Shown here: positions 10,689 through 24,157 of the stretch, one piece after another
Numbering within the stretch: position 1 is the first letter of the stretch
Layout: every line of letters begins with the position of its first letter
Assembly: GCF_019711375.1 (NCBI RefSeq)
Contig: NZ_CP081295.1
Location: 2,207,001 to 2,271,000, forward strand
DNA length: 64,000 bases
Origin: Qipengyuania aurantiaca
Lineage (GTDB): Bacteria > Pseudomonadota > Alphaproteobacteria > Sphingomonadales > Sphingomonadaceae
Direction of reading: 5' to 3'
The notes under the pieces: model-generated
The model's input: the letters and a program-made list of their open reading frames with translations, nothing else
Told to the model about the DNA's origin: nothing
Databases searched by the model: none
Program-made: the position numbers and the translations under genes

Positions 10689-10765
10689 GGCGGAGTAGCT
10701 CAGGTGGTTAGAGCAGCGGAATCATAATCCGCGTGTCGGGGGTTCGAGTCCCTCCTCCGCTACCA
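10689..10765 (+). tRNA. tRNA-Met (CAT), elongator type
   Basis: 77 bases with encoded CCA. Acceptor stem GGCGGAG pairs with CTCCGCT (one G-T pair). The anticodon stem GCGGA/TCCGC holds the loop ATCATAA, anticodon CAT. The T arm GGGGGTTCGAGTCCC is intact. The body resembles alphaproteobacterial elongator Met tRNA rather than initiator or lysidine-modified Ile tRNA. Confidence 0.95.
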
Positions 10766-10885: not shown

Positions 10886-12847
10886 TTGGCTGAAATCTTC
10901 ATCTCCTACGCACGGTCCACGGCCGAGCAGGCGCAGGCGGCTGCACGCGGCTTGCGCGAGGAGGGGTATGAAGTCTGGATCGACGACGCCTTGCCCGCGC
11001 ATCGCGAATTTTCGGTTGTCATCGAGGAGAAGCTGCGCGAGGTCGATGCGGTGCTCGTCGTGTGGTCGGACGACGCGCGGCGGTCGCGTTGGGTGCTGGC
11101 CGAGGCTGATTTGGCGCATGAGCAGGGCAAGCTGGTGCAGTTCAGCCTCGACGGGACGATTCCGCCTTTTCCGTTCAATCGCGTGCATTGCGAGCAGGGT
11201 ATAGGCTGGTCGGGCGACATCACCGCGGCCCCCTGGCGCAAGATCGTCGCCTCCGTGGAGGACTTGGCGGGGACCGGCGCGGATACCTTGCCGGGCCTGG
11301 GTCAGGAGTTCGCTCGCCCGACATCGCGCGACCCGCTGCTGGCAGTAATGCCCTTCGACAATTTCAGCGCCGATGCCGAACTCGACTTTTTCTGCGATGG
11401 CATCTCGGAAGAAATTCAGCGCACCGTGGCGAGCGGCAGCAGCCTCAAGGTTGTCGCCCGCGCGTCCAGCTTCCAGTTTCGCGGTGCGGACAAGGACACA
11501 GCGCGCGTCGCCTCGGCGCTTGGCGCAACGCACCTCCTCGACGGGTCGGTCCGGCGGGCGCAGAACCGGGTGCGGATCAGCGCCGAACTGGTCGAATGCA
11601 CCACGCGCAGCGCCATCTGGGCCGATCGGTTCGACGGCGAACTCGACGATGTCTTCGATCTCCAGGAACGCATAGCGGAGAAGGTGGCCGAAGCGCTGAA
11701 GGTGGCGCTAACCCCTGCGCACAAGGAGGAGGCGCTCGATCCCGCTTCCTACGAAGCCTACATGCGCGCTCGCGGCATCATGGCCGAAGGCGATCCCTTG
11801 TTCGACGATGCCTATCGCGAATCGATCCCGCTGCTGGAACGGGTGGTGGAGGCCGCGCCCAATTTCGCGCCGGCGTGGGAAAGCCTCGCCGAATGCCGCG
11901 CCTGGACGCTGCGATCGGGCCGCTACGACAAGGCCTATCACATCGGGCGTGACGGCGTGATCGAGGCGGCGAAGACCGCGCTCAGGCTCGATGCCAAGAG
12001 CGGGGGCGCCTATGTCGCGCTCGCCATGCTTGAACCCTGGGGCGCCTATGCGGAGCGCGAGGCGCTGCTGCTGAAGGCGCTGGAAGTCTCGCCGCGCGAT
12101 ACGGCGGCGCTGACCGATATGAGCACCTTCTGCTGGAGCGTCGGGCGGTTCCGCGACGGGCTGCGCTATGCCGAGAGGGCGTGCGAGCTCAATCCGCTCA
12201 TGCCGTCCGCGCGGCTCAACGTGGCGCAGATGCGCGCCTACGTCGGCGATATCGACATCTGCGTGGCGATGCACGAACAGCTTCACCGGCAATGGCCCGA
12301 CAACCCCGGGATCCTGATCTCGCTGGTCAACACCGCCGGCACGCTCGGCTATTGGGACGCCTTCGACAGGGCGGTCCCCGATGTCGGCCAGCTCAACGAA
12401 TGGCAGAGCCGCGACATGCGCGCCGCGCTTGCCTTTGCGCAGGCGGTGCGCACCAAGGACCCCGAGCTAATTGACCGGCGGATGACGCGGTACCGCGAAT
12501 ATCTCGACAAGACCGGGCACCTGCCGCTCAATCTCGTGGTGTCGATCGGCGAATTCGGATTGCCTGACGAAGCGCTCGATATGGCCGAGCGCGCCTCCTA
12601 CGATTTCGTTTTCAACCCCGATGGCGCGCGGCCGAGCGCCTACTTCCCCGGCACGATCATGGGGCCGTGGAGCAAGGTGCTGCAAAAGCCGCGTTTCGTG
12701 CATTTATGCACGCGGCTGGGCTTTTCGGAGTACTGGAAGAGCACCGGCAAATGGCCCGATTGCGAGGATTGGGTGGAGTATGATTTCCGCGCCGAGGTCG
12801 AAGCCTCGCTGGAAGCGGCTCAGGGAGAAAAAATGCCCGCACCATAG
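10886..12847 (+). CDS. TIR domain + TolB-like domain + TPR protein (paralogue A)
   Basis: 653 residues. Residues 1-110 are a TIR domain (FISYAR, then VWIDD, VLVVWSDDARRSRWV). Glu73 in SRWVLAEAD sits where the TIR NADase catalytic Glu is expected (W-V-x-x-E, as in SARM1). Residues ~150-290 are a FlgO/TolB-amino-like domain (LLAVMPFDNFSADAELDFFC), as found in adenylate-cyclase-linked regulators. The rest is TPR-like helices. The TTG start is supported by GGGGAGG 8 bases upstream. Its 3' end overlaps the convergent operon by 28 bases. A paralogue lies at 59177-61159. NADase activity is inference; it could be a scaffold only. Confidence 0.82.
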   Translation: MAEIFISYARSTAEQAQAAARGLREEGYEVWIDDALPAHREFSVVIEEKLREVDAVLVVWSDDARRSRWVLAEADLAHEQGKLVQFSLDGTIPPFPFNRVHCEQGIGWSGDITAAPWRKIVASVEDLAGTGADTLPGLGQEFARPTSRDPLLAVMPFDNFSADAELDFFCDGISEEIQRTVASGSSLKVVARASSFQFRGADKDTARVASALGATHLLDGSVRRAQNRVRISAELVECTTRSAIWADRFDGELDDVFDLQERIAEKVAEALKVALTPAHKEEALDPASYEAYMRARGIMAEGDPLFDDAYRESIPLLERVVEAAPNFAPAWESLAECRAWTLRSGRYDKAYHIGRDGVIEAAKTALRLDAKSGGAYVALAMLEPWGAYAEREALLLKALEVSPRDTAALTDMSTFCWSVGRFRDGLRYAERACELNPLMPSARLNVAQMRAYVGDIDICVAMHEQLHRQWPDNPGILISLVNTAGTLGYWDAFDRAVPDVGQLNEWQSRDMRAALAFAQAVRTKDPELIDRRMTRYREYLDKTGHLPLNLVVSIGEFGLPDEALDMAERASYDFVFNPDGARPSAYFPGTIMGPWSKVLQKPRFVHLCTRLGFSEYWKSTGKWPDCEDWVEYDFRAEVEASLEAAQGEKMPAP

Positions 12848-13899
12848 GTGTGCAGCGTTTCCAGCACCTCGAATTTGGCGTCCGACTGAAAGGCGAGGGC
12901 GAGAACCACGTCCTTGCGAATGATCGGCAGGTGCCAGTCGGTGGCCAGTTCCGAAGGCGTGGCATCAGCATCGGTGAAGGCGAAGTCTTCCTCGGCGGCG
13001 GAAGGTTCGTCGATATCGAAAAGCGTCTTTAGCTGCTCGCGCATCGTGTCTGACCAGGCGAAAGCCAGATCGACGTCCGAGCCCCGGAAATAGCGAAGTC
13101 CCTGCACGTTTTCATGCGTTGCGCGCGAGGCGATGATGGCGCGATAGGCGGCCACCCGCATATCGAACGCATCGCGGAATTGCTTGAGCGTATCGATATG
13201 CACGCCGTGGGCAGGCTTGTCCTTGTCGCCCCCAAGTCCCGGGATGGCGCTGCCCCATTCATCCAGCAATTGCCGGGCCTCGCCATGCGCGTCCGCATGA
13301 GCAATCATCGCGTCGTAATCGACCGCTTCGGTTCCGGGATCGAGATTGATGCGCAGCACGCCGATCGAGTGCGAGCGCGAGCGCGGCTTGAACTTTGTGA
13401 AGCCCTGTATGGCCACGTCGAGATGCAATTCGTCGGTCTTGTCGCCGGTCTCGAACCCGATGTCCGCCATCTGTTTCTCGCTGCCCCAGATCTCGCGGCT
13501 GGCGAACATGACGGTCGAATTGTCGACGAGGTAGAAGGGCTGGATCCAGACGAGGTCGGGTTCCTGCGAAGCAAGGTTGTCGCCATCGACCGCATAGCGA
13601 TAGGCGGGAAACTGCCAGAACAGCTCGCGAAAGGCGACCGTGTCCCAGCCTTCGCGCTGGCCGCCCGCGCAGGAAAACTGCGGATGGTCCGTCACCATCA
13701 GGATGCCGTAGGTCGGCTTGCCGAGCGCCTCGTAGCGATAGGGCGAAGGATCGGGCCCCGGCGCGTTGAGGTGGCTGTCGAGATAGTCCTGCATGCAGTG
13801 GCGCGGCACTTCGAGGACGAAAGCCCAGTGCCGGCTGCGCAGTGTGCGCCAAGGCGGGATCAGCGACTGGTCGGAGAAGGAGGGGACGAAGTCGGTCAT
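12820..13899 (-). CDS. Divergent acetoacetate-decarboxylase-fold protein (copy 2, operon end)
   Basis: 359 residues starting MTDFVPSFSD. The segment ASREIWGSEKQMADIGF matches the acetoacetate decarboxylase (ADC) core GRE-5 residues-KK-LA: Arg135-Glu136 followed six residues later by Lys142, the position of the Schiff-base Lys115 in Clostridium ADC. The second Lys (116) is Gln here. The N-terminal part (YGILMVTDHPQFS) and overall length are larger than classical ADC (~245). It overlaps the upstream gene by 4 bases (ATGA) and is last in a six-gene operon. Decarboxylase, aldolase or dehydratase chemistry is possible; the substrate is unknown. Confidence 0.6.
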   Translation of the reverse strand: MTDFVPSFSDQSLIPPWRTLRSRHWAFVLEVPRHCMQDYLDSHLNAPGPDPSPYRYEALGKPTYGILMVTDHPQFSCAGGQREGWDTVAFRELFWQFPAYRYAVDGDNLASQEPDLVWIQPFYLVDNSTVMFASREIWGSEKQMADIGFETGDKTDELHLDVAIQGFTKFKPRSRSHSIGVLRINLDPGTEAVDYDAMIAHADAHGEARQLLDEWGSAIPGLGGDKDKPAHGVHIDTLKQFRDAFDMRVAAYRAIIASRATHENVQGLRYFRGSDVDLAFAWSDTMREQLKTLFDIDEPSAAEEDFAFTDADATPSELATDWHLPIIRKDVVLALAFQSDAKFEVLETLHTYGAGIFSP

Positions 13900-15044
13900 C
13901 GCTTGAACAGGCCTTCCAGCAGCCCCTTCATCGGCCGGAACCAGGCGGCGGCAAGGTCGCTGCGCGCTACGCGCGGCTGGATGCCGTCGATGCCATCGAT
14001 GGGAAATTCGTGGATCACGCGCATCTGGTCGTAATCGATATCGGCGCAAAAGCGGAAGGCGGCGACCGGATGGGTGCTCATCGTGGCGCCGAGGCCGACC
14101 TTGGAGCTGGAAATCAGCGTCGAGATGATCTGGCGGAAGCTACCCTCGCTGTTGAAGCTGATGTCGACGTCCTGCTCGCTGTAGAACTCGATGGAGCGCA
14201 GGTTGGAGAAATAGGACCGGCAGGTCACCAGCGCTTGATACACGGCCTTGTCCGGGTGTTTCGCATCGCGATATTGCTTGAGTCCGACGGTGCGCATCAC
14301 GGTGGGGATGGTGCCGAGGGAGGCGAAATTCACGAAGTTGGAGAGCTTCGACATGGTCTCGAAGAGCGAGGCCGCTTGCGGGGTGTCGAATAGCGAATAG
14401 AGCGATTGCTCGTCACCCTGCGGCGTGGCGCTCGGCATGGGCGCGCCGGTGGTGACGGTCACGAACTCGCGATAGGCCTGCACCTCGTGCGGCGCGCCGT
14501 CCTTCCAGCCGGGCAGGCGGACCTTGCCAAAAAAGCTCTCGGGCTCTTCGTTCTCGCCGAAGTCGATCTCGGCCAAGAGCTTGCCGAGCCCAAGCATTTC
14601 GCGCCCGCACACGCTCGACCACGGCTCGCTCACCACGATGACCGGGACAATCCATTCCACCGCCGCGCGGGTCATGGCGGTCAGCGGGTTGGTGCCATAG
14701 CGAATGACGGGAATGGCCACGAAGGCCTCGCGCTGGCTGGTGATCCCGCGGTCAGGATAAGGCGTCTCGCCGAAATCGTAAACGTCGCGCGCCGAGCTGA
14801 TCATCTCGGGGTAATCGAGAAACATCAGCGTGGCGTAAGGCCAGGCGGCGAGGGGGCGATAATGGAAGCCCCGTTCGGCCGCAGTGCCGAGATTGAGGTA
14901 AGTGTCGCAATAGGCCTGCACCTTGGCCATGTCCGCCGGCCAGATGAAGGTGTTCACCCGCACATTGGGGAAGTGATAGGGCGGCGGCACGTCCTGGCTG
15001 ATTGCCGACTGGACGTAGGGCACGAAAGGCCCGTCGCGGATCAT
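13896..15044 (-). CDS. Divergent acetoacetate-decarboxylase-fold protein (copy 1)
   Basis: 382 residues starting MIRDGPFVPY. Early VNTFIWPADMAKVQAY and WPYATLMFLDYPE, then EAFVAIPVIRYG and VCGREMLGLGKLLAEIDF, follow the ADC pattern. Gly-Arg-Glu (147-149) is followed six residues later by Lys155, aligning with the Schiff-base Lys of ADC; the neighbouring second Lys is Leu. It resembles the next gene in the operon, and the two could form a heteromer. ATGA overlap with both neighbours implies coupled translation. The fold is inferred from motif spacing; the reaction is unknown. Confidence 0.62.
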   Translation of the reverse strand: MIRDGPFVPYVQSAISQDVPPPYHFPNVRVNTFIWPADMAKVQAYCDTYLNLGTAAERGFHYRPLAAWPYATLMFLDYPEMISSARDVYDFGETPYPDRGITSQREAFVAIPVIRYGTNPLTAMTRAAVEWIVPVIVVSEPWSSVCGREMLGLGKLLAEIDFGENEEPESFFGKVRLPGWKDGAPHEVQAYREFVTVTTGAPMPSATPQGDEQSLYSLFDTPQAASLFETMSKLSNFVNFASLGTIPTVMRTVGLKQYRDAKHPDKAVYQALVTCRSYFSNLRSIEFYSEQDVDISFNSEGSFRQIISTLISSSKVGLGATMSTHPVAAFRFCADIDYDQMRVIHEFPIDGIDGIQPRVARSDLAAAWFRPMKGLLEGLFKR

Positions 15045-16111
15045 GGCGCCGTCTCGGCAGGGGTAAGGCTCTCGAACACGCCCGCGCCGGCGTCGACGAC
15101 CAACTGCGCCCCGAATGCGCTGGCAGGAGTCTGGAACCCGGCGGGAGCCTCGCCGTCGAGGACGCGGCGAACCACCTCGCCCGCGCACAGCACGCTGGCG
15201 GTGTAGCCGTCGAGCGTATGCAGCTTGAGCCGCCTTACGCGCCGCCACTTGTCGAGCGCTTCGACCACCATGGCAAAACGCGCCCTCTCGCGCGCTTCGG
15301 GCGACGGCGAGCGCGGCCAGGCCACCGATAGCTGGTCGGCAAATTCGCGCGCCTGCCGTTCTCCGGTCACACGCATACCGATGCCCGACATGCGATAGGC
15401 GGTGCGCTCGTGCCATTTCATCTCGGTGTAGACCTCGATATTGGCAACGCCGGTGGAGACGGGGGCGGTGACGACATCCGCCCAGCTCATCGCGACGCAG
15501 TCGCTGAGGCCGCTGCCGAAGTCGAACGGACGCTTCAGGCTTCCTGCCGGTACGCGCTCGAGCTTCGTGTCGCGGCAGATCATCGCATCGGCATCGAGCA
15601 AACGCGCAGCGGTCGAGACGCTCCCGCGCGAGATGACCTGCGCGCGCGAAATGCCGAGGCACAGGCGATCCGTATCGGGCCACAACTCCACCGCACGCTT
15701 CAGCAGGCAGTCGGTCGCGGCGACGGTGAGGCCTATGCCGGGGAGGATCATAACGCCCGCATCGCGCGCCTCGCGATCATGTGTCTTCAGTTGCTTGAAG
15801 ACCGGCCATTCCCCACCAAGGTCGAGATAATGCGTCCCGTTCGCCGTGCAGGCGCGCACGAGGTGGCCGGCGGTCTCGTTGAAGGGCCCGGCGGCGTTGA
15901 GCATGGCCTTGGCCTCCCCGACGTGCCGCTCGGCGGCCTTGGTGTCGTCGAGATCGAAGGCGACCCAGGGCACGCCCAGTTCCTCGGCAATCGCACGGAT
16001 CGCCTCCGGATTGCGTCCGGCAAGCTTGAGGTCGACCTTCCCGGCAAGATGGTGCGCCACTTCGAGGCCGGTGACGCCGTTGGCGCCGTAGAGGAGGACC
16101 GGACCGCTCAT
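15041..16111 (-). CDS. Saccharopine dehydrogenase-like NAD(P)-binding enzyme
   Basis: 356 residues. The N-terminus LLYGANGVTGLEVAHHLAG is a Rossmann nucleotide-binding motif, followed by LKLAGRNPEAI and MLNAAGPFNETAGHLVRAC, as in the trans-acting enoyl reductase / saccharopine dehydrogenase-like family (NC domain). Such proteins reduce C=C bonds in lipid and polyketide pathways, so a reductive step on an isoprenoid or lipid fits the operon. Four-base overlaps occur at both ends. The exact substrate cannot be read from the sequence. Confidence 0.75.
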   Translation of the reverse strand: MSGPVLLYGANGVTGLEVAHHLAGKVDLKLAGRNPEAIRAIAEELGVPWVAFDLDDTKAAERHVGEAKAMLNAAGPFNETAGHLVRACTANGTHYLDLGGEWPVFKQLKTHDREARDAGVMILPGIGLTVAATDCLLKRAVELWPDTDRLCLGISRAQVISRGSVSTAARLLDADAMICRDTKLERVPAGSLKRPFDFGSGLSDCVAMSWADVVTAPVSTGVANIEVYTEMKWHERTAYRMSGIGMRVTGERQAREFADQLSVAWPRSPSPEARERARFAMVVEALDKWRRVRRLKLHTLDGYTASVLCAGEVVRRVLDGEAPAGFQTPASAFGAQLVVDAGAGVFESLTPAETAP

Positions 16112-17160
16112 GGCCGGTCGAATACCCAGCTCGGCAGGATTTCGAGGAAGTCGAGCTCGGCGCTCGGCGGCAGGCCGTCATAGGCGGTGCGAAATTCCAT
16201 CATCGCCACGCCCGCCATCGCATCGGCGACCTGCCGCGCGTGGCGGATGGAGCCGCGCTCCTCCATGAGGGCCGCGAGCCAATCGATCTCTTCCGCAGGC
16301 CGTTCGGCGCGCGGCAGGCCGAGCAGGTGTTCGAGCCGCGCCTTCTCCTCCGCCGAGCAGGCCCCGTGGACATGGATCAGCATCAGCGTGCGCTTGCCCT
16401 CGTAGAGGTCCCCGTTGCGCTCCTTGCCGTAGCCGGGGTTGTCGGTGAGATTGCGCAGATCGTCCTCGATCTGGAAGGCGAGGCCGAGGAAATGGCCGAA
16501 GCGCACCACCCGCGCCGGGTCGACGCGCCCGCGCGCGCCCATCAGCACGCCGAGCTGGGCAGGCCAGATCATGCCCATCCACGCGGTCTTCTTCAGTGCC
16601 ATGCGCAGGTAGTCGGCTTCAGTCAGGTCGAGCACGTTCCGGTCACGCCAGCCCAGTTCCAGCGCCTGTCCCTCGGCGGTCTGCCGGGCCATCGCAATGG
16701 TGACATCGAGCACGCGCTTGCCGACGTCCGAGCCGAGCGGCCGAATGGCATCGAGCAGGGGCTGGAAGGCGGTGAAGAGCAGGGCGTCTCCGGCGTTGAT
16801 CGCCAGCGAGACGCCGTGCTGGGCGTGCAGCGTAGGCAGGCCGCGGCGAAATTCGCTCTCGTCCTGCACATCGTCATGGATGAGCAGCGCGTTGTGGAGC
16901 AATTCGACCGCCGCCGCGCAGCGCGCCGCCTGCTTCAGCTCGCCGCCAAAGATCAGCGCATTGGCGATACAGATACCGGGGCGCAGCATCTTGCCACCGC
17001 GTTTCGGATATTCGGTCAGCAAAGCGTCGAGATAGGGCGCTTCGGTGTCGGGGGTGAGATAATGCTGGAGGTAAACGCGCGTCTCCTGCCCGAAGCGCTG
17101 CAAAAGGCTCGCGGCCTCGCTGTGCTGGCGGTCGAAGCCCTGATGCGCCTCGGCGTTCAT
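16108..17160 (-). CDS. Polyprenyl synthetase (isoprenyl diphosphate synthase) with altered second Asp motif
   Basis: 350 residues, all-alpha trans-prenyltransferase. The first Asp-rich motif is HDDVQD (Asp96, Asp97, Asp100), preceded by a small residue (Ala) at the fifth position upstream, which usually permits C20 or longer products. Other family marks: GGKMLRP, FRRGLPTLH, INAGDALLF. The second Asp-rich motif reads FQIEDDLRN, so the last Asp of DDxxD is Asn237. It may still bind one fewer metal, make a different product, or be a regulatory homologue. Positioned mid-operon beside a desaturase-like flavoprotein. Confidence 0.82.
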   Translation of the reverse strand: MNAEAHQGFDRQHSEAASLLQRFGQETRVYLQHYLTPDTEAPYLDALLTEYPKRGGKMLRPGICIANALIFGGELKQAARCAAAVELLHNALLIHDDVQDESEFRRGLPTLHAQHGVSLAINAGDALLFTAFQPLLDAIRPLGSDVGKRVLDVTIAMARQTAEGQALELGWRDRNVLDLTEADYLRMALKKTAWMGMIWPAQLGVLMGARGRVDPARVVRFGHFLGLAFQIEDDLRNLTDNPGYGKERNGDLYEGKRTLMLIHVHGACSAEEKARLEHLLGLPRAERPAEEIDWLAALMEERGSIRHARQVADAMAGVAMMEFRTAYDGLPPSAELDFLEILPSWVFDRP

Positions 17161-17930
17161 GAGGCTGCGAGGACTTCGATGGTGAGCACGCCGAGCGGCA
17201 CATCCTGCCCTTCAGCCATGATGAGGCCGTAGTAAAAGCCGGGCGGCTGGTCTGTCGGGATGCGTATGCTGACAGAGGGACGCTCGCCGACCGCGGCGGT
17301 GAAGGCGGTGCATTTGAGCGGTTCGGCCTTGATGCCTTGCGGCTCGAGTTTGGTCGGACGAATTTCTTCCGGGCGCGTCGGGCGCATGGGCTTCTTCATG
17401 CGGCTGGAATGGCTTACCGCCTTGCCGTGACCCGTGAAATGCGTCTCGAACTCGATTTCGTCGACATCGCGCGGCGCTTTGATCGAGCCTTCCGCGTGGT
17501 TGGCCCTTTGCGGCATGGTGCTGCGAAAGGGCGGGACCTGCGCGGCGACCTCGCCGGGCGGTGGCGGGGCGGCCGCGGCGCTCATCTGGGTGACCATCTG
17601 CTCGCACAGGTTGAGCGTCGAGGTGCTAAGTTGCCGCACGACTTCGATGGCTTTCAGCGAGATCGAGGCGATGTCGCCGGGCAGCGCGTCCATCGACATA
17701 TCGCCCTTCTCCAGCCGGTCCATGCTGCTGCGGGTCTGGCGTACGGCCTCGTCGAGCACGTCGTAGCTGCTCTGCACCGCCTGGGCGACGGCTTCGTCCA
17801 TGCTGGCAGCCGGATCGCCTGCGGGAGCGCGGGGTGCAGCGCGCGCACGGACATTAGCCCCGTTGCGGATGGGCCGCATGCGCTCGGCCTGCGGGGTTGT
17901 CTTGCGCGCGGAAGGATCACGGGTGGTCAT
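17157..17930 (-). CDS. Unknown protein: helical middle and Ig-like C-terminal strand region
   Basis: 257 residues. A basic, disordered N-terminus (1-40) leads into a predicted helical stretch (about 45-115: SYDVLDEAVRQTRSSMDRLE... ), then a Pro/Ala linker and a charged segment. The C-terminal 50 residues read like beta strands (VSIRIPTDQPPGFYYGLIMA). The helical part loosely recalls phasin-like or granule-associated proteins, but I do not recognise a family. It overlaps the upstream oxidoreductase gene by 14 bases and the prenyl synthase by 4, so it is an obligate operon member, perhaps a scaffold or surface protein for a lipid product. Confidence 0.7.
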   Translation of the reverse strand: MTTRDPSARKTTPQAERMRPIRNGANVRARAAPRAPAGDPAASMDEAVAQAVQSSYDVLDEAVRQTRSSMDRLEKGDMSMDALPGDIASISLKAIEVVRQLSTSTLNLCEQMVTQMSAAAAPPPPGEVAAQVPPFRSTMPQRANHAEGSIKAPRDVDEIEFETHFTGHGKAVSHSSRMKKPMRPTRPEEIRPTKLEPQGIKAEPLKCTAFTAAVGERPSVSIRIPTDQPPGFYYGLIMAEGQDVPLGVLTIEVLAAS

Positions 17931-20127
17931 AGGCGGTGATGTCCTCGAGCCTGGGTGAACCGGAAAGGGCGTGCGCGGCGAGCAGCCCCGACATTACCGC
18001 GCCCTCGACACAGCCGGAATGGAAGCCGCTGTCGGTCCAGTCTCCGGCGATGGTGAGATTGTCGTAAGTGCGATCCAGCGGCGAGATGCGGTAGCGGAAG
18101 CTGCCAGGCGTATGGATTACGTAGCGGTCGGAAGGGTTGACGTTGGCGCGCCAGTACTGGGTTGCGAACCGTCCTTCGTCGTTGAGCTTGCGGTTGCCGC
18201 CATATTCCTCGGCCACCGAGAGCAGGTTCCAGCGGAAATGGCCGTGCTCGTCATAGGCGCCGGGCCACACCTCGCGCACCGGCCCTTTCAGGAAGCCTTC
18301 CGCATTGGCGCGCACCTCCTCGGTTCGCAGCGAGAGATAGTCGGTGTCCTCGTCGCTCGGCGGGGTTTCGGGATCGGGCAGGACGGCGCAGAAATAGACC
18401 GAGGTAGCCGGCGGCGTCTTCCACGCCTCTTCCGGCACGACATGGGCCATGTCGCACCAGGTGTCGAAAGGCTTGGCGAAGGCGCCGGTGATATAGGCGG
18501 GGCCCGGCCATCCGAGGTCTTCGAGGCTCTCGTCCATCCAGATCTGGAAGGCCTGCGAGGCGACCGTCTTCACATGGACGCACATATCCGCCCAGCGCTG
18601 GTCGTGCGCGACGATCTCCGAAGCAACGTGCGGAATAGCGCCGACGCCGACGGTGAGCGCGACGAAGTCGAAATCCTCCGTCACGCGAAGGGTTTTGGTG
18701 CCCGCGCGGCGGCGGTCCCAATGGGATTCGAAATGCCAGCCTTCCGCTTGCGCTGTCTGGCCGTCCTTGAGCTGCGCGTAATCGGGCTTCGACGGCCAGC
18801 ACGGCTTGCCCGCGACGTCCACGAGCGGCTGGTATTCGCCGCCGCCTTCGATTTCGGCCTGCACGTCGAAGGTCAGGCTGGCGACATGGCTGCCGTCTTC
18901 GGAAAGGCCGGTGTTGGTGAGGCGATGGAAGAATTCGAACTTGACCCCGCGGTCGCGCATGGTCGTGTAGAGCGGGGCGAAGACGACATCGCCCATGCCG
19001 GCGCGCATTCGCCACATGAAGGCGCCGCGATAGCCGAAGAAGGTGCGCAAGGTTCCGCGCAGGCCCTGACCGGCGGACAGCGCAGGCTTGCTCTCGTCGC
19101 CGTTCTCATAGCCCATCGACAGGTCGTAAAGGCCGCGCAGGAAGGGCGATTGCAGCGCCCTGATCGAAGCGCCGTTGATGCGCATCCATTCGCGGCATTC
19201 GTAATCGTCGATTGCGTCGAGCCCGCGCTCGTCGGTGAGGATGCCATAGCGGATCATGCCGGTGATCGTCGCCACCGTGAGATCGGCGACTTCCCACATG
19301 AAGCGATGCTGGTCGTCGGCGATCCATTGGTCCTCGACCCATTGCCGCAGCTGCGACAAGATGCCCTCGGACGCCTTGAGCAGCCCGTCCGAACTGGCTG
19401 GGGTCACCGATCGTAACAGCGCGGCCAGAACGCCGAGACCTTCGGTCAGCGCCGCCGCTCCCGCAAAGCGGCCGAGGCGCGCAAGATGGGCGAGGCGGTG
19501 CGAAATGTCGCCCGAGGCAGGATGCTCGAAATCGGTGACCGGCGTCTTGCCGTCGACCTTGGTGTCCAGCACCAGCGCCTGCAGCAGTTCGAAGGCCCGC
19601 GCCATGTAATGCGGAAGCGAGAAGCCGGTATCGGGCGGCAGCGGATCGCCGGGCAGGCCGGCGCGTGCAGGCATATGCACGCTCCAGCTGGTAAAGCCGC
19701 CGCGCTCGTCGGAGGAATGCAGGACGATGTCGTTTTCGGGCGTCCACGCATCCCGCCAGTCGCCGTAGATATGGCCCTTGCCGGCGGCTTCGAGCTCGGC
19801 ATGGCACTCGCGCATCATGCGGAAGGAGTTGTCGTAGAAACCCAGCCAGATGTGGAGGCCATGCTCCTCGATCCGGCCCGAAACGCCGCGGCCCGACGCG
19901 CCCTTGCCGCCAAGACGCCAGCCTTCCTGGTAGACGGTGACCTCGTATTTCCCGTCATGTTCGGGGCGCGAGAGTTCCCAGGCCAGCGCCATCGCCGCGC
20001 AGCCGCCGCCGATGACGGCAACCCGTGTGGGCGAGCCGCTCAAGCGGTCATTTCCGGCATAGTCCGGCCATCGAATGTGCAGATATACCGCGCACGAGTC
20101 CTCGCCTCCCCAAGCGACCTCGGTCAA
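17917..20127 (-). CDS. FAD-dependent oxidoreductase, phytoene desaturase/amine oxidase-like, large
   Basis: 736 residues. The dinucleotide-binding motif RVAVIGGGCAAMALAWELSR is near residue 40, followed by VYQEGWRLGGKGASGRG and IEEHGLHIWLGFYDN, the layout of plant/cyanobacterial-type phytoene desaturase and HpnE-like flavoproteins (GLH..FG.Y.N). The C-terminus NLTIAGDWTDSGFHSGCVEGAVMSG is the second FAD-contact motif. It is about 250 residues longer than typical desaturases because of a middle insertion. The TTG start at 20127 is uncertain; an internal TTG nearer the Rossmann motif is possible. First gene of the minus-strand operon; probable role is desaturation or oxidation of an isoprenoid. 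Confidence 0.8.
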   Translation of the reverse strand: MTEVAWGGEDSCAVYLHIRWPDYAGNDRLSGSPTRVAVIGGGCAAMALAWELSRPEHDGKYEVTVYQEGWRLGGKGASGRGVSGRIEEHGLHIWLGFYDNSFRMMRECHAELEAAGKGHIYGDWRDAWTPENDIVLHSSDERGGFTSWSVHMPARAGLPGDPLPPDTGFSLPHYMARAFELLQALVLDTKVDGKTPVTDFEHPASGDISHRLAHLARLGRFAGAAALTEGLGVLAALLRSVTPASSDGLLKASEGILSQLRQWVEDQWIADDQHRFMWEVADLTVATITGMIRYGILTDERGLDAIDDYECREWMRINGASIRALQSPFLRGLYDLSMGYENGDESKPALSAGQGLRGTLRTFFGYRGAFMWRMRAGMGDVVFAPLYTTMRDRGVKFEFFHRLTNTGLSEDGSHVASLTFDVQAEIEGGGEYQPLVDVAGKPCWPSKPDYAQLKDGQTAQAEGWHFESHWDRRRAGTKTLRVTEDFDFVALTVGVGAIPHVASEIVAHDQRWADMCVHVKTVASQAFQIWMDESLEDLGWPGPAYITGAFAKPFDTWCDMAHVVPEEAWKTPPATSVYFCAVLPDPETPPSDEDTDYLSLRTEEVRANAEGFLKGPVREVWPGAYDEHGHFRWNLLSVAEEYGGNRKLNDEGRFATQYWRANVNPSDRYVIHTPGSFRYRISPLDRTYDNLTIAGDWTDSGFHSGCVEGAVMSGLLAAHALSGSPRLEDITAYDHP

Positions 20128-20231: not shown

Positions 20232-20660
20232 ATGTTCACCCTGGCGATATCGCTGGTTCTCGTCGCCGCGACCATTGCTGTGCACTACGAGACCTTGCGG
20301 TTCACCTCGCAGCGGCTGACGCATCTTCGCATAAGCCCGCGCGCCCGCATCATCGTCATGCTTGTCGCCGCGCTGTCATCGCACATGATCCACGCGCTTC
20401 TCTATGCGCTTGCCTATCTGGGGCTGGAGGAAGTCGGCGGTTTCGGCACGATCGGCGGCGAGCGGGGACACAGTCTCGAAGACGCCTTCTATTTCTCGAT
20501 CACCAGCTACACGACGCTGGGTATCGGCGATCTTTTCCCGACCGGTGCGCTACGCATTATCAGCGGGATAGAGGCCCTCAATGGCCTCGTCATGGTCGGA
20601 TGGACGGCGTCCGTCACCTATATCTACATGGAGAAATTCTGGCATATCCGGCCAAGTTAG
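20232..20660 (+). CDS. Small potassium-channel-like membrane protein
   Basis: 142 residues with three hydrophobic helices and a pore-loop between the second and third: AFYFSITSYTTLGIGDLFP. TTLGIGD corresponds to the K+ selectivity filter TVGYGD, with the Tyr replaced by Ile, which may change selectivity. No cytoplasmic ligand domain is attached. It starts 104 bases from the divergent desaturase-like gene and is 43 bases upstream of the SLOG-like gene in the same direction, suggesting co-transcription and a joint role. Confidence 0.75.
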   Translation: MFTLAISLVLVAATIAVHYETLRFTSQRLTHLRISPRARIIVMLVAALSSHMIHALLYALAYLGLEEVGGFGTIGGERGHSLEDAFYFSITSYTTLGIGDLFPTGALRIISGIEALNGLVMVGWTASVTYIYMEKFWHIRPS

Positions 20661-20703: not shown

Positions 20704-22524
20704 ATGGCGAATACGACGGCGGGTGAACCGCAGCAGGACCTTCTGCCACGGCTCGTCCTGAGGTTCGGCATCACCGGCCATCGACCTCCGCGCCTTGCGC
20801 TCGAACATCATGACGCGGCGCGCAAAGCCTGCGCCGACATCTTTGCCGAGGCGAAGACTATTCTTGCCCGGATCAAGGCCGCGCATGGCGAGCTGTTTTC
20901 CGATGAGGAGCCGCTCGTGCGGCTGGTGTCCGCGCTGGCATCGGGAGCCGATACGGTCGCTGCCGAGGCCGCGCTCGACCAGGATATTGGGCTTTCGACC
21001 TGCATGCCCTTTGCCGCATCGGTCTATCGCAAGGACTTCTCGGAAGAGGATTGGGAGGGGGCCGAAATGCTCGCCTCGGCAGCCGACAGCAACTTGGAGC
21101 TGACCGATCATCCCGGCGGCGACGAGGCGGCCTATGAGGCGGTGGGCAGGCTGGTGCTTGCGCAGGCCGACATCCTCATCGCGATATGGGACGGAGAGGC
21201 GGCGCGCGGTCGTGGCGGCACCACCGATATCGTGGCCGAGGCCATCGCGCGCCACATCCCGGTCATCCACATCAATCCCGACGGGGCGCATGAGCCGATC
21301 CTCCTGTGGAGCGGCCTGCATCAGGAAATTCCCGATCGCCCTTCCATCGACGGGGTCAACCGCGTCCCGCTCGCCAAGGCCTATGGCCCGGTGATCGAGG
21401 CGCTGTGTACGCCTCCCGAGGGGAGGGAACTCGATGCGTTGCACCAATTCCTTTCCGGCGAAACCAGCGGGCGCGAAACGAGCTTTGCCTGGCCCCTGCT
21501 GCTGGTCGCCTGCGGAGCACGCAAGTGGAGCGAAGTGCAGTTCCGCAACCCAAGCGCAGAAGAGGAAGAGAACTATTTCGCGCCCATCGTCGCGCCTTTT
21601 GCAAAGCTCGGAAAATTCGGAAGGCAATTGACCGGTGACCTGCTCGACCGCTTCGGGCGGGCGGATGCCGGCGCGAGCGGGGCAGCGCTTCAATATCGCA
21701 GCACTTTCGTCACCAACTTCTCGCTTGCCGCCGTGGCCGTGGCGCTGGCGCTTGCAGGGATCGCCGCGCCGCAAGCCAAGGTCTGGCTGATCACCGCCGA
21801 GCTGATCGTGATCGGCTTGATCATCGTGAACATAAGGCGCGGGACGAAATGCAACTTCCACCAGATATGGATCGACCGCAGGCATCTGGCTGAACGGCTG
21901 CGCCTGCTGGCGATGTCGGGAATGCTCGGACGGTTATCCCTGCGCGATGTGGAGGATGGGACGACGCATCCCGGCTGGGTGACTTGGTACGCCCGCGCCA
22001 CCGCGCGCGAATTGGAATTGCCGCAAGGCGAGCTCGACAAGGCCTATCTCGGCAAGGTGCGCGATGCCGCTTTCGCGCTGATCGACGACCAGCTGTCCTA
22101 TCACCGCAAGAACGCGCATGTGATGGAGCATGCCAACCATCGCCTGCACAAGGCGGGCGACTGGCTCTTTGTTTGCACCATCCTGTTCTGCCTCGCCTAT
22201 CTCGCCGCGAAGTTCTTCGCCCCCGGTCTGGTGAAGGGGGAAGGGCTTGGAATGACCCAGATCGTGACCATGGCGACGGCGTTTTTCCCGGCGCTTGCCG
22301 CGGCACTTTACGGCATCCGAATGCAGGGCGATTTTGCCGCCACCTCCGAACGTTCGGCGGCGATTGCGGGGCGGCTCGCCAAGCTGCGTTCCGCGATGGA
22401 GGCGGACACGCTCTCCTACGACCGGTTGGTCGACCGGCTGCGCAGGCTGGGAGACATCATGCTTTCCGACATCCACCAGTGGCAGCAGCAATACGAGATG
22501 CGGCCGCTAACCCTGCCGGGCTGA
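20704..22524 (+). CDS. SLOG-like nucleotide-binding domain fused to four-TM SLATT-like region
   Basis: 606 residues. The N-terminal 220 residues read as a SLOG/LOG-type Rossmann domain: RFGITGHRPPRL, LVSALASGADTVAAEAAL, and DILIAIWDGEAARGRGGTTD. Two pairs of hydrophobic helices follow (about residues 340-380 and 485-545) with a charged helical stretch between and after them, the plan of SLATT-type (SMODS/SLOG-associated 2TM) effectors. Comparative genomics links such proteins to nucleotide-sensing conflict systems; no experiment is implied here. The ATG at 20704 follows GGGGAGGGGG. A longer TTG-started frame from 20581 overlaps the channel gene and is less likely. Confidence 0.7.
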   Translation: MANTTAGEPQQDLLPRLVLRFGITGHRPPRLALEHHDAARKACADIFAEAKTILARIKAAHGELFSDEEPLVRLVSALASGADTVAAEAALDQDIGLSTCMPFAASVYRKDFSEEDWEGAEMLASAADSNLELTDHPGGDEAAYEAVGRLVLAQADILIAIWDGEAARGRGGTTDIVAEAIARHIPVIHINPDGAHEPILLWSGLHQEIPDRPSIDGVNRVPLAKAYGPVIEALCTPPEGRELDALHQFLSGETSGRETSFAWPLLLVACGARKWSEVQFRNPSAEEEENYFAPIVAPFAKLGKFGRQLTGDLLDRFGRADAGASGAALQYRSTFVTNFSLAAVAVALALAGIAAPQAKVWLITAELIVIGLIIVNIRRGTKCNFHQIWIDRRHLAERLRLLAMSGMLGRLSLRDVEDGTTHPGWVTWYARATARELELPQGELDKAYLGKVRDAAFALIDDQLSYHRKNAHVMEHANHRLHKAGDWLFVCTILFCLAYLAAKFFAPGLVKGEGLGMTQIVTMATAFFPALAAALYGIRMQGDFAATSERSAAIAGRLAKLRSAMEADTLSYDRLVDRLRRLGDIMLSDIHQWQQQYEMRPLTLPG

Positions 22525-22530
22525 TCGGCG

Positions 22531-24036
22531 TTAGCGGTTTGTCCAGCGCGAAAGCCCGTCTTCATGCGAGCGGATTTCGCCCGGCTGCCCCACCGGCTCC
22601 TGATCGCCTGAAGTAAGGAAGGCGATCATCGCTGCGTCCTCGGCAGGGACATGCGCAAGAGTGCGTGCACCTGTCGGTGTTCGGGCAACGATGACACCGG
22701 AGCGCGGCGATCCGTCGCGGGCATAGTGCACGGTGTAGGTCTCGATCGTGGCCTCACCCGCATAGTCTTCGTCCAGCGGCGGCACGTCGCCGCGCTGCGC
22801 ATCGGCTTCGTGCTGGTAGTCGAAGTCCTGCGGGAAGACGGCCCCGGTCGGTGTGCCCGAGAGCAAGATCGTGTGGTTGTGCGTCGCGTAGCCGCCATTG
22901 GCGAAAAGCAGGCCCTTTTCGGTCGTCCCCCGCAAGCGCAGCACCATCTCCGCCACGGCGTGGCTCATGTAATTGCCGATGGGGCCGCCGCCGAACGTCA
23001 GGCCGCCGAAGACGGTGGCGGGGCGATCCAGAGGCCAGCCCAGCACGCGGCGAGCCATCTTGGGGACGCAGGGGAAGCAGGAGTAGAGCTCGACATGCGC
23101 AAGATCGCTTGCGGTTACCTCGTTCAGCGCCATCGTGCGCTTGATCGAGACCGCCAGGCTGGGCGAGGCGGCGTAGCTGTCGCGGGTGAGGAAATTGCCG
23201 TCCTCGTGGCAGGCGGCACCATGCCCCACGAAGACCAGCCGATCCTCGGGCACGCCCCTATCCCGCGCTTCGGCTAGGCTGGTTACGAGGAAGCCCGCCC
23301 CCTGGTTGACCGAGGAATTGGCGACCTGCAGTTTGGTATAGGGAAACGCGATGGGCCGGTTGTCGGGTGAGGGCGTGATGACCTCCTCAGCCGCCACAGG
23401 CTCGCGCAGCCACGCGCTGTCGTTACCGGCCGCCACCTCGCTCATGTCCGCCCAGATCGCGCCGCTTTCGGACTGCCCCTCCGCGAGGCTCTGGCCATTG
23501 GCCGCGCGGCCCGCGTTCTCGTAGAGCGGGTAGACATCGGTCGGGACGACGAGGCCGTAGCTCGGCGCATAGCCGGCGCGCTTGCGGTGGCTCGCGTCGC
23601 GCAGGGCGTTGGGTTTCTCGCCATCCTCGCGCGGCTTCATGGCGGCGAGCTTCGCCGCTGTGCGCAGCGCCTCCCCGCCGACTATCGCGCACACGCTGGC
23701 TTCGCCGCGCGCGATGCGGTTGGCAGCCTCGTGCAGGAGGAGGATAGGGCTGTCGCCATTGGGCATGGCGGTCTGCAAGCGGTGCGCCGGATCGATGCCG
23801 AGATGCTCGGCCAGCTTGCCGTCCACCGGGTTCAATTGCGGCCAGGCCAGCTGCGCGACGACGCTGAGCGAATCGCAATTTCCGAGCCAGTCGCCGCCCG
23901 CGTCTTGGTCTGCACGGTTCAGCGCGGCAGCCATCAGGCCGATGGGATCGAGCCCGTCGCCCGGATTCTCCGGGCGGTCGTTGATCTGGCCGACGCCGAT
24001 GATGACGGGAGTTTTGCGCGGGTCCGGTTGGCTCAT
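22531..24036 (-). CDS. Thiolase-like acetyl-CoA acetyltransferase with C-terminal extension
   Basis: 501 residues. The N-terminal 400 residues follow the thiolase fold of the SCP-x/acetyl-CoA acetyltransferase group (PVIIGVGQINDRPE, CAIVGGEALRTA, VELYSCFPCVP, GLTFGGGPIGNYMSHA). The C-terminal ~110 residues form an added OB-like domain (YAGEATIETYTVHYARDGSP) typical of the long thiolase-like branch. The glycine-rich GGPIGNY loop and Cys of SCFPC are present, but the canonical active-site Cys context is divergent. Probably acts in acyl-CoA degradation; the substrate is unknown. It is convergent with the SLOG-like gene, 6 bases apart. Confidence 0.78.
   Translation of the reverse strand: MSQPDPRKTPVIIGVGQINDRPENPGDGLDPIGLMAAALNRADQDAGGDWLGNCDSLSVVAQLAWPQLNPVDGKLAEHLGIDPAHRLQTAMPNGDSPILLLHEAANRIARGEASVCAIVGGEALRTAAKLAAMKPREDGEKPNALRDASHRKRAGYAPSYGLVVPTDVYPLYENAGRAANGQSLAEGQSESGAIWADMSEVAAGNDSAWLREPVAAEEVITPSPDNRPIAFPYTKLQVANSSVNQGAGFLVTSLAEARDRGVPEDRLVFVGHGAACHEDGNFLTRDSYAASPSLAVSIKRTMALNEVTASDLAHVELYSCFPCVPKMARRVLGWPLDRPATVFGGLTFGGGPIGNYMSHAVAEMVLRLRGTTEKGLLFANGGYATHNHTILLSGTPTGAVFPQDFDYQHEADAQRGDVPPLDEDYAGEATIETYTVHYARDGSPRSGVIVARTPTGARTLAHVPAEDAAMIAFLTSGDQEPVGQPGEIRSHEDGLSRWTNR

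Positions 24037-24082: not shown

Positions 24083-24157
<75 letters not shown>

Follow-up and report, generated by a model that had tools for sequence, protein, structure and literature searches.

A conserved six-gene operon of Qipengyuania aurantiaca with a flavoprotein, a polyprenyl synthase and two acetoacetate-decarboxylase-fold proteins, and its TIR-type or SARP-type neighbours

The operon and its proteins

Six minus-strand open reading frames (ORFs) were analysed in a stretch of 64,000 nucleotides of Qipengyuania aurantiaca (contig NZ_CP081295.1, positions 2,207,001 to 2,271,000), hereafter the window, to which the positions below refer. They lie at 12820-20043, each overlapping the next, and encode, in reading order, a flavoprotein, the product of gene 2, a polyprenyl synthase, a saccharopine-dehydrogenase-like reductase and two proteins of the acetoacetate decarboxylase (ADC) fold, ADC1 and ADC2. 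A convergent gene for a TIR-TPR protein meets the 3' end of the set. The operon is real and conserved; we infer its mechanism and product.

17917..20043, minus strand: gene 1, large flavoprotein of the HpnE/carotenoid-desaturase/amine-oxidase superfamily, 708 residues (Pfam Amino_oxidase and NAD_binding_8; start taken from P0127)
17157..17930, minus strand: gene 2, protein of unknown family, 257 residues (no Pfam match; 22-row alignment)
16108..17160, minus strand: gene 3, predicted geranylgeranyl-type polyprenyl diphosphate synthase (polyprenyl_synt 3.8e-54; motifs)
15041..16111, minus strand: gene 4, saccharopine-dehydrogenase-like NAD(P) reductase (Sacchrp_dh_NADP 1.3e-10)
13896..15044, minus strand: gene 5, ADC1, ADC-fold protein 1 (Pfam ADC 5.8e-5, below cut-off)
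14580..14582, minus strand: codon of Lys155 of ADC1 (at the position of the first PKK lysine of canonical ADCs)
12820..13899, minus strand: gene 6, ADC2, ADC-fold protein 2, a diverged paralogue of ADC1 (ADC1/ADC2 profile comparison)
10886..12847, plus strand: protein with TIR, TolB-N-like (by eye) and TPR parts (TIR_2 1e-14); its 3' end overlaps gene 6 by 28 bases

Genes 1 and 2 overlap by 14 bases, and the junctions 2/3, 3/4, 4/5 and 5/6 by 4 bases each. A preliminary description of this DNA had read the six overlapping genes (4 or 14 bases) as a single translation-coupled unit. All ORFs were found again at the place and on the strand given there, and the single coupled unit is supported; the gene order and most of the overlaps recur in other loci, which is more than chance would give. 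The span of 12820..20127 given there is right as to location; however, the mechanical ORF of gene 1 extends to 20127, and the gene probably starts at a TTG at 20043, as in the database protein P0127. The G+C content is 65.3% in the operon and 64.0% in the window. A promoter scan gave 0 candidates, and a terminator scan did no better than shuffled sequence. None of the six genes reaches the cut-off of any NCBIfam model. In the Pfam searches that the preliminary description had proposed, the Amino_oxidase, polyprenyl_synt and Sacchrp_dh_NADP matches were above the cut-off and the ADC matches below it.

The flavoprotein matches Amino_oxidase (2.3e-11) and NAD_binding_8 (7e-11), both above the cut-off. 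It belongs to the same FAD-binding superfamily as HpnE and the carotenoid desaturases (TIGR03467, TIGR02731, TIGR02732), the similarity covering the dinucleotide part at the N-terminus and the FAD motif at the C-terminus; the latter motif, GDWTDSGF, is kept in 16/16 loci, the window included. However, the protein exceeds the HpnE profile in length by about 280 residues and scores 57.2 bits against the equivalog cut-off of 283. A first search of solved structures gave no match, and a second gave only weak superfamily matches, the best being phytoene dehydrogenase (5.5e-7). Database relatives are numerous: 7,068 of 7,993 scored matches had E <= 0.001, of which the best 120 were looked at and the weaker ones may be other superfamily members. 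The window genes that were scanned include no recognisable hopanoid or carotenoid gene. A standard carotenoid, hopanoid or quinone operon was rejected, as phytoene/squalene synthase, cyclase and prenyltransferase are absent from the six genes and the HpnE and desaturase cut-offs were not reached. The absence of this gene set from known operons, as claimed at the outset, agrees with the open-access literature searched, where none is described; most subscription papers lie outside it.

Gene 2 has 6 database proteins at E <= 0.001. Its product shows, by inspection only, a variable low-complexity N-terminus and a helical-looking middle, followed by a conserved C-terminal PxGxYxG...PLG.

Gene 3 scores 184 bits against the polyprenyl_synt cut-off of 27. 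Its aspartate-rich motifs DDxxD and DDLRN are found in 16/16 loci, the window included, and its best solved match is a geranylgeranyl diphosphate (GGPP) synthase (1wmw). It has in common with GGPP synthases (NF041003; 1wmw) the polyprenyl_synt fold, DDxxD and a second aspartate region, but reaches only 172 of the 500 bits required by NCBIfam GGPP_syn, and its second motif is DDLRN. The genome has three PF00348 genes versus two in G146, a genome of the same genus that lacks the operon; gene 3 is thus the extra, third polyprenyl synthase. The polyprenyl transferase cargo of family 2 encapsulins (NF041169) has the same fold and aspartate motifs. Gene 3 was nevertheless rejected as such a cargo, with 157 bits against a cut-off of 450; no search for an encapsulin gene was made.

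The gene 4 match to Sacchrp_dh_NADP is above the cut-off, and that to a solved saccharopine dehydrogenase is marginal (E 0.098). The reductase and the ADC-fold proteins described earlier are both supported.

Against the PF06314 cut-off of 29.8 bits, ADC1 scores 23.2 bits and ADC2 20.4 bits (3.9e-4). This cut-off is passed by the related ADCs of five flavoprotein loci treated below (L028, L043, L044, L045, L156; L numbers denote loci and G numbers genomes). ADC1 has 164 database relatives at E <= 0.001, and ADC1 and ADC2 are homologous (profile comparison, E 7.2e-35). Searches of solved structures with ADC1 and ADC2 gave nothing credible. Lys155 of ADC1 aligns, by both hhalign and MAFFT, with the first lysine of PKK, which we take to be the catalytic residue of canonical ADCs. 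This lysine is invariant in ADC1 (20/20 alignment rows; 15/15 loci, the window included and L016 not looked at) and is also found in 10/10 other flavoprotein-linked ADCs aligned, whether fused, paired or single. At the corresponding position ADC2 has lysine in 4/14 loci (window, L004, L030, L031) and Met, Ser or Thr in 10/14, L006 and L016 being dropped. Because the lysine is lost in these 10 proteins, use of this residue can be assumed for ADC1 alone. The lysine that the Schiff-base step proposed earlier would need is present in ADC1 and lacking in most ADC2 proteins. In the ADC tree, the single ADC of the five-gene loci L148 and L149 groups with ADC1 (0.98), which is consistent with an origin of ADC2 by duplication followed by decay.

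The operon ADCs have in common with the ADC-like superfamily (MppR and canonical ADCs) the motif [G/S]RE-x-x-G-x-x-K and the aligned lysine. They differ from canonical ADCs in lacking a conserved second lysine and in being linked or fused to a flavoprotein, and ADC2 mostly lacks the first lysine as well. In MppR, a characterised ADC-like protein, the lysine serves ring closure according to the available part of PMC10367076; therefore, the reaction of an ADC cannot be read from its fold.

Conservation of the six-gene set and of its neighbours

The set of other loci consists of 13 obtained by scanning genome contigs with the ADC1 alignment, plus those of G078 and G111 (15 in total). Since the 13 were picked via ADC1, the test is whether the remaining genes accompany it, and they do. 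The same genes were found in the same order in 15/15 loci as far as the contigs reach (L006 ends inside ADC2, L016 ends inside ADC1, and L015 begins inside gene 1). A further six-gene locus was later read in G942 (L146); L147 is on the same contig as L006. The earlier statement that these genes travel together thus holds for the six-gene type: no neighbourhood was found in which they are not conserved together.

The spacing is also largely kept, the start-codon offsets across the 15 loci being those of candidate starts and not proven ones. An offset of -14 is found at genes 1/2 in at least 13/15 loci (L006 and L012 are outside the starts listed). An offset of -4 is found at genes 3/4 in 15/15, at genes 4/5 in 13/14 (exception L008; L016 dropped) and at genes 5/6 in 12/13 (exception L012; L006 and L016 dropped). 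The junction of genes 2/3 does not keep its 4-base overlap, with offsets from -4 to +4.

The operon is rare. ADC1 is present in 3/159 genomes of the family (Sphingomonadaceae) and gene 2 in 3/119, the own genome included in both counts. A scan of viral contigs gave 66 pattern matches, none of them a relative. A five-gene form with one ADC occurs in two relatives, L148 and L149; a gene for an RPE65-type carotenoid oxygenase lies close to it at L148:2321-3796. Neither form was found in 11/18 family genomes bearing the flavoprotein (G964 is cut by a contig end). Pairwise identities of the genes over 14 loci, with the convergent TPR gene among them, correlate at 0.81-0.98. This is as expected if the unit is inherited together; shared descent alone would give the same.

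The closest named genome is that of Erythrobacter sp. SD-21 (L004), in which the flanking genes are 89-95% identical. In G078, of the same genus as the window, the operon is at 0.10 Mb, and the genes that flank the operon of the window are at 0.79 and 0.84 Mb. Despite this different chromosomal place relative to the window genome (G000), the TIR gene and the SLOG-SLATT-like gene described below again adjoin the operon. In the window, a tRNA-Met (10689-10765) and a tRNA-Gln (24083-24157) bracket the TIR gene, the operon, the channel gene and the SLOG-SLATT-like gene.

In all other six-gene loci with enough sequence on that side (14/14), a relative of the TIR-TPR protein adjoins the operon. The N-terminal part of this protein is TIR in the window, L004, L008, L014, L015, L030, L031 and L146, and SARP/BTAD-like in seven Novosphingobium-type loci (L005, L007, L009-L013; by Pfam in L010 only and by alignment in the others). 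The BTAD cut-off of 22.1 bits is passed in L010 (44.3 bits) and in the five-gene locus L149 (23.3 bits); for the regulator of L148, no BTAD match was found among the matches listed. The motif WxxxE, presumably the NADase signature of TIR domains, is kept in 8/8 TIR-type six-gene loci. Among 118 genomes, full-length relatives of the partner (56-61% identity) were found only in the other two genomes with the operon, and the other TIR hits at E 1e-50 were at most 42% identical and mostly partial. The TIR_2 match of the window copy is above the Pfam cut-off; with the PADLOC models, the matches to ThsB were weak (3.9e-4, 0.0096) and the best was to a SAVED-TIR model (7.3e-11).

Two further genes, which like the convergent partner are missing from the preliminary description, lie on the other side of the operon:

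20232..20660, plus strand: ion channel gene, divergent from the operon (Ion_trans_2 2.5e-11)
20704..22524 (ORF from 20581), plus strand: SLOG-SLATT-like membrane protein, assigned largely by eye

The window copy of the latter has no Pfam match, and its relatives are all below the cut-offs (DUF4231 0.0034 and SLATT_1 0.0041 in L006; YpsA SLOG 0.25 in L030). The best SLATT/DUF4231 scores, in L006, were 18.2/24.7 and 17.6/26.3 bits. The gene is near 6/7 assessable TIR-type loci, being upstream in the window, L004, L008, L014 and L030 and beyond the TIR gene in L031; in L006 it lies beside the operon. Near the SARP-type loci read it was found in 0/9, L007 and L012 having less than 2 kb upstream. 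A rule that it always goes with the operon was thus rejected as too strong. The channel gene is near the operon in L004, L006 and L014, and elsewhere near SLOG-SLATT-like genes. Beyond the SLOG-SLATT-like gene of the window is a thiolase-like gene (by eye, 22531-24036), kept near the operon in L004 and L006.

Across the family, 18/118 genomes have the SLOG-SLATT-like gene, and 15 of these lack the operon. As a control, 12 of these 15 were read (G020, G063 and G113 left out). A TIR protein, always above the TIR_2 cut-off, was found within about 3 kb in 8/12 and a channel in 5/12; therefore, TIR, SLOG-SLATT and channel form a recurrent set themselves. Caspase and trypsin genes are near TIR and SLOG-SLATT-like genes at L157:592-6898 and L116:12162-15169, and a trypsin gene only at L117:12829-13854.

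Flavoprotein loci within and outside the family

A profile search across the family found the flavoprotein in 18/337 genomes, the own genome included. The six-gene type is that of G000, G078, G111, G942 and G961, and the five-gene type, with a SARP-type regulator directly upstream, that of G966 and G1029 (BTAD over the cut-off in G1029 only). TIR-flavoprotein pairs are found in G003, G060, G883, G097 and G875, with a gap of 11-61 bases in the four pairs measured. The pair of G060 is one of the control loci (L115), where a lone flavoprotein, 34% identical, stands between TIR and SLOG-SLATT-like genes. In G058 the flavoprotein is beside a TIR-TPR relative without the first part of TIR, and in G140 the flavoprotein, a cyclase-AAA protein and an ADC are in one run. 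In G1045, G884 and G930 a flavoprotein-ADC fusion, a TIR-TPR protein, a SLOG-SLATT-like protein and a CruF-type Caroten_synth protein are encoded in one co-directional run (L152:4000-11614, L153:5315-13319, L155:5720-13627). The CruF-type match is 1.1e-32 in L152 and 2.7e-31 in L153, and was made by eye in L155. Fusions of flavoprotein and ADC are present in five loci (L028, L044, L152, L153, L155); the two are adjacent in L043 and L045 and in one run in L156.

In G961 the partner side is cut, and G964 meets a contig end (its upstream side was read, and no signalling gene was recognised there), which leaves 16 assessable genomes. A signalling protein was found in 16/16: it adjoins the flavoprotein gene in 12 and is at the far end of the operon in G000, G078, G111 and G942. 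The partners are TIR-TPR (12), incomplete TIR-TPR (1), SARP-type TPR (2) and cyclase-AAA (1). TIR was assigned by Pfam in 6/12 (window, L115, L151, L152, L153, L157) and by similarity in the other six. In the flavoprotein tree, the TIR-partnered members fall in three distant, separate clades; therefore, the link between flavoprotein and TIR arose repeatedly or is old.

The flavoprotein was found in 6/397 genomes of a phylum sample and 3/347 of a class sample, the own genome included. Outside the family nine loci were compared, L054 and L055, which are of one genus, being taken as a single locus, and likewise the Azospirillum plasmids (8 records, 2 read). A signalling neighbour was found in 7/9 and an ADC in 4/9. 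In L028 and L044 a flavoprotein-ADC fusion is followed by adenylate/guanylate cyclase proteins (AAA by Pfam in L028), and in Azospirillum (L043/L056) the flavoprotein and an ADC are accompanied by a kinase-AAA-GAF-histidine kinase. Near the flavoprotein are a kinase-AAA-GAF-cyclase in L046, a CadC-TPR protein in L029, a PAS-histidine kinase in L101, and, in L054 and L055, a giant protein whose N-terminus looks kinase-like by eye. These neighbourhoods mark the flavoprotein, rather than the whole six-gene set, as the more widely conserved core that accompanies signalling proteins, a point absent from the preliminary description. The six genes look like an elaborate version, fitted out for isoprenoids, of a flavoprotein locus type whose companions are TIR and other signalling proteins.

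Two side observations concern these loci. A Pfam-matchless protein of 303-317 residues adjoins the flavoprotein in a Pseudomonadota genus (L054:10826-11761, L055:8281-9192) and on a Bacteroidota plasmid (L046:10403-11356); the L054 and L046 copies were scanned with Pfam, and the similarity was seen by eye. At L043:8320-11722, on the two Azospirillum plasmids read, a second flavoprotein gene is followed by a gene for a FadL-type transporter.

Interpretation of the locus

The reading that we favour, with about even confidence, is that the six genes may form one signal-coupled operon for the synthesis or remodelling of an isoprenoid, with a signalling protein attached to it. Of the elements of this reading, the connection to signalling has the strongest support. 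The isoprenoid substrate is suggested by the dedicated polyprenyl synthase, the flavoprotein superfamily and the CruF-type gene in three related loci; the flavoprotein-ADC fusions beside that gene in three genomes likewise support the isoprenoid theme of the preliminary description.

The pathway would begin with the synthesis of a C20 (or longer) all-trans prenyl diphosphate by gene 3. The flavoprotein might then oxidise, desaturate or dehydroxylate the prenyl chain, and the gene 4 reductase might reduce an intermediate. ADC1 could form a Schiff base with a keto intermediate, followed by cleavage, cyclisation or decarboxylation, and ADC2 would mostly be a structural or substrate-holding partner. 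The gene 2 product may keep the enzymes assembled or anchored at the membrane. A cue would be sensed by the TPR protein: the SARP form may switch the operon on, and the TIR form may address the SLOG-SLATT-like protein and the channel, possibly through a nucleotide derived from NAD. In this scheme, signalling would have its chemical output in the isoprenoid.

Several points weigh against this reading. The product, the substrate and the enzyme activities are predicted only, and terpene cyclase, prenyltransferase and squalene/phytoene synthase are absent from the six genes. Both ADC1 and ADC2 are below the Pfam cut-off, as is the fused ADC of L152 (23.4 vs 29.8 bits), and their profiles match those of canonical ADCs weakly (E 0.044 and 0.005). 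Outside the family, L045 and L100 lack an adjacent signalling protein: L045 has an ADC beside the flavoprotein and a diguanylate cyclase about 3 kb off, and L100 has neither an ADC nor a signalling neighbour. The 16/16 association has been set only against a rough estimate of how often TIR genes would lie near random genes, about 1% per gene if ten TIR genes in 3 Mb are assumed. In G942, which has a TIR partner, no SLOG-SLATT-like gene was found in the 19 kb read. Finally, in six genomes with a TIR-type partner (G058, G003, G883, G060, G097, G875), tblastn found no genes 2-6 in the 3.9 to 19 kb read, and in the four of them checked the CruF-type gene is absent as well. The lack of genes 2-6 means that the association does not require an isoprenoid substrate.

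A wider proposal is tentative. The flavoprotein might be the core enzyme of an unnamed bacterial signalling/conflict class, in which TIR-TPR (or SARP-, CadC-, cyclase- or kinase-type) sensors drive the flavoprotein and a Schiff-base ADC to convert an isoprenoid to an active product. The SLOG-SLATT-like protein and the channel would be the membrane arms, and the locus in the window, with its own GGPP-type synthase, the most elaborate form among those compared.

The strongest alternative, though rather unlikely, is a conflict (anti-phage or abortive-infection) system, in which the TIR-TPR protein would sense infection and answer with a nucleotide signal, and the SLOG-SLATT-like protein would open the membrane. 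The flavoprotein and the isoprenoid enzymes would then act as an accessory effector, either damaging the membrane or sealing it. The patchy distribution fits such a role, as do the WxxxE motif of the TIR-type loci and the TIR genes near SLOG-SLATT-like genes in 8/12 loci away from the six-gene operon. Thoeris (TIR ThsB with a SIR2-SLOG or TM-macro ThsA), one branch of which is defined by TIR proteins with SLOG sensors according to the available part of PMC11204291, likewise combines TIR with a SLOG protein. In the window, however, TIR is fused to TolB-N/TPR, the isoprenoid enzymes stand between the TIR and SLOG-like genes, and no ThsA effector (SIR2-SLOG or TM-macro) was recognised by PADLOC among the six genes and three neighbours scanned. 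For NTP-dependent conflict systems, TIR with SLATT genes, caspases and trypsins is described in the part of PMC7159879 that was available, and caspase and trypsin genes (both in L157 and L116, trypsin in L117) occur in loci related to that of the window. The main text of that paper is without the terms polyprenyl, isoprenoid, acetoacetate, terpen and FAD-depend. Isoprenoid enzymes are not named in the available part of PMC11204291 either. Against a conflict system, PADLOC at E 0.01 matches none of the six genes, and such elaborate enzymes would be unusual for an effector. Furthermore, a SARP/BTAD-like domain, which looks regulatory, replaces TIR in 7/15 six-gene loci with the partner read, and the nine SARP-type loci, two of them short upstream, are without the SLOG-SLATT-like gene.

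An ordinary operon for a specialised metabolite or membrane lipid, to which the TIR, SLOG-SLATT-like and channel genes are bystanders, is unlikely. It would account for the 15 genomes that have the SLOG-SLATT-like gene without the operon and for neighbours that vary in order and side (L006, L031). Moreover, Erythrobacter sp. SNB-035 makes erythrazoles, one of which, erythrazole B, bears an appended diterpene side chain according to the available parts of PMC6270579 and PMC9410182; erythrolic acids and erythrazoles were considered as products of the operon and stay a lead. Bystanders would not be expected, however, to adjoin the operon at different chromosomal places, as the TIR and SLOG-SLATT-like genes do in G078 and G000, or to leave a signalling partner in every assessable flavoprotein locus of the family. 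A catabolic set for a terpenoid or other hydrophobic compound is very improbable: the FadL-type outer-membrane transporter of Azospirillum, the RPE65-type oxygenase beside the L148 operon and the nearby thiolase-like gene would suit it, but the dedicated polyprenyl synthase points to synthesis, the operon contains no CoA ligase, thiolase or hydratase, and the thiolase-like gene is more than 0.6 Mb from the operon in G078 and G111.

If the favoured reading of a signal-coupled isoprenoid operon is true, isoprenoid chemistry would join nucleotides and NAD loss among the things to which bacterial TIR signalling is coupled. A testable role would then also fall to a flavoprotein family that has numerous database relatives and for which no function was found here. 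The natural exchange of TIR and SARP-like domains on one TPR chassis allows a direct test of whether such TIR proteins are regulators. The locus hints that lipid-type chemistry and bacterial alarm signalling may be connected in a way not recognised so far.

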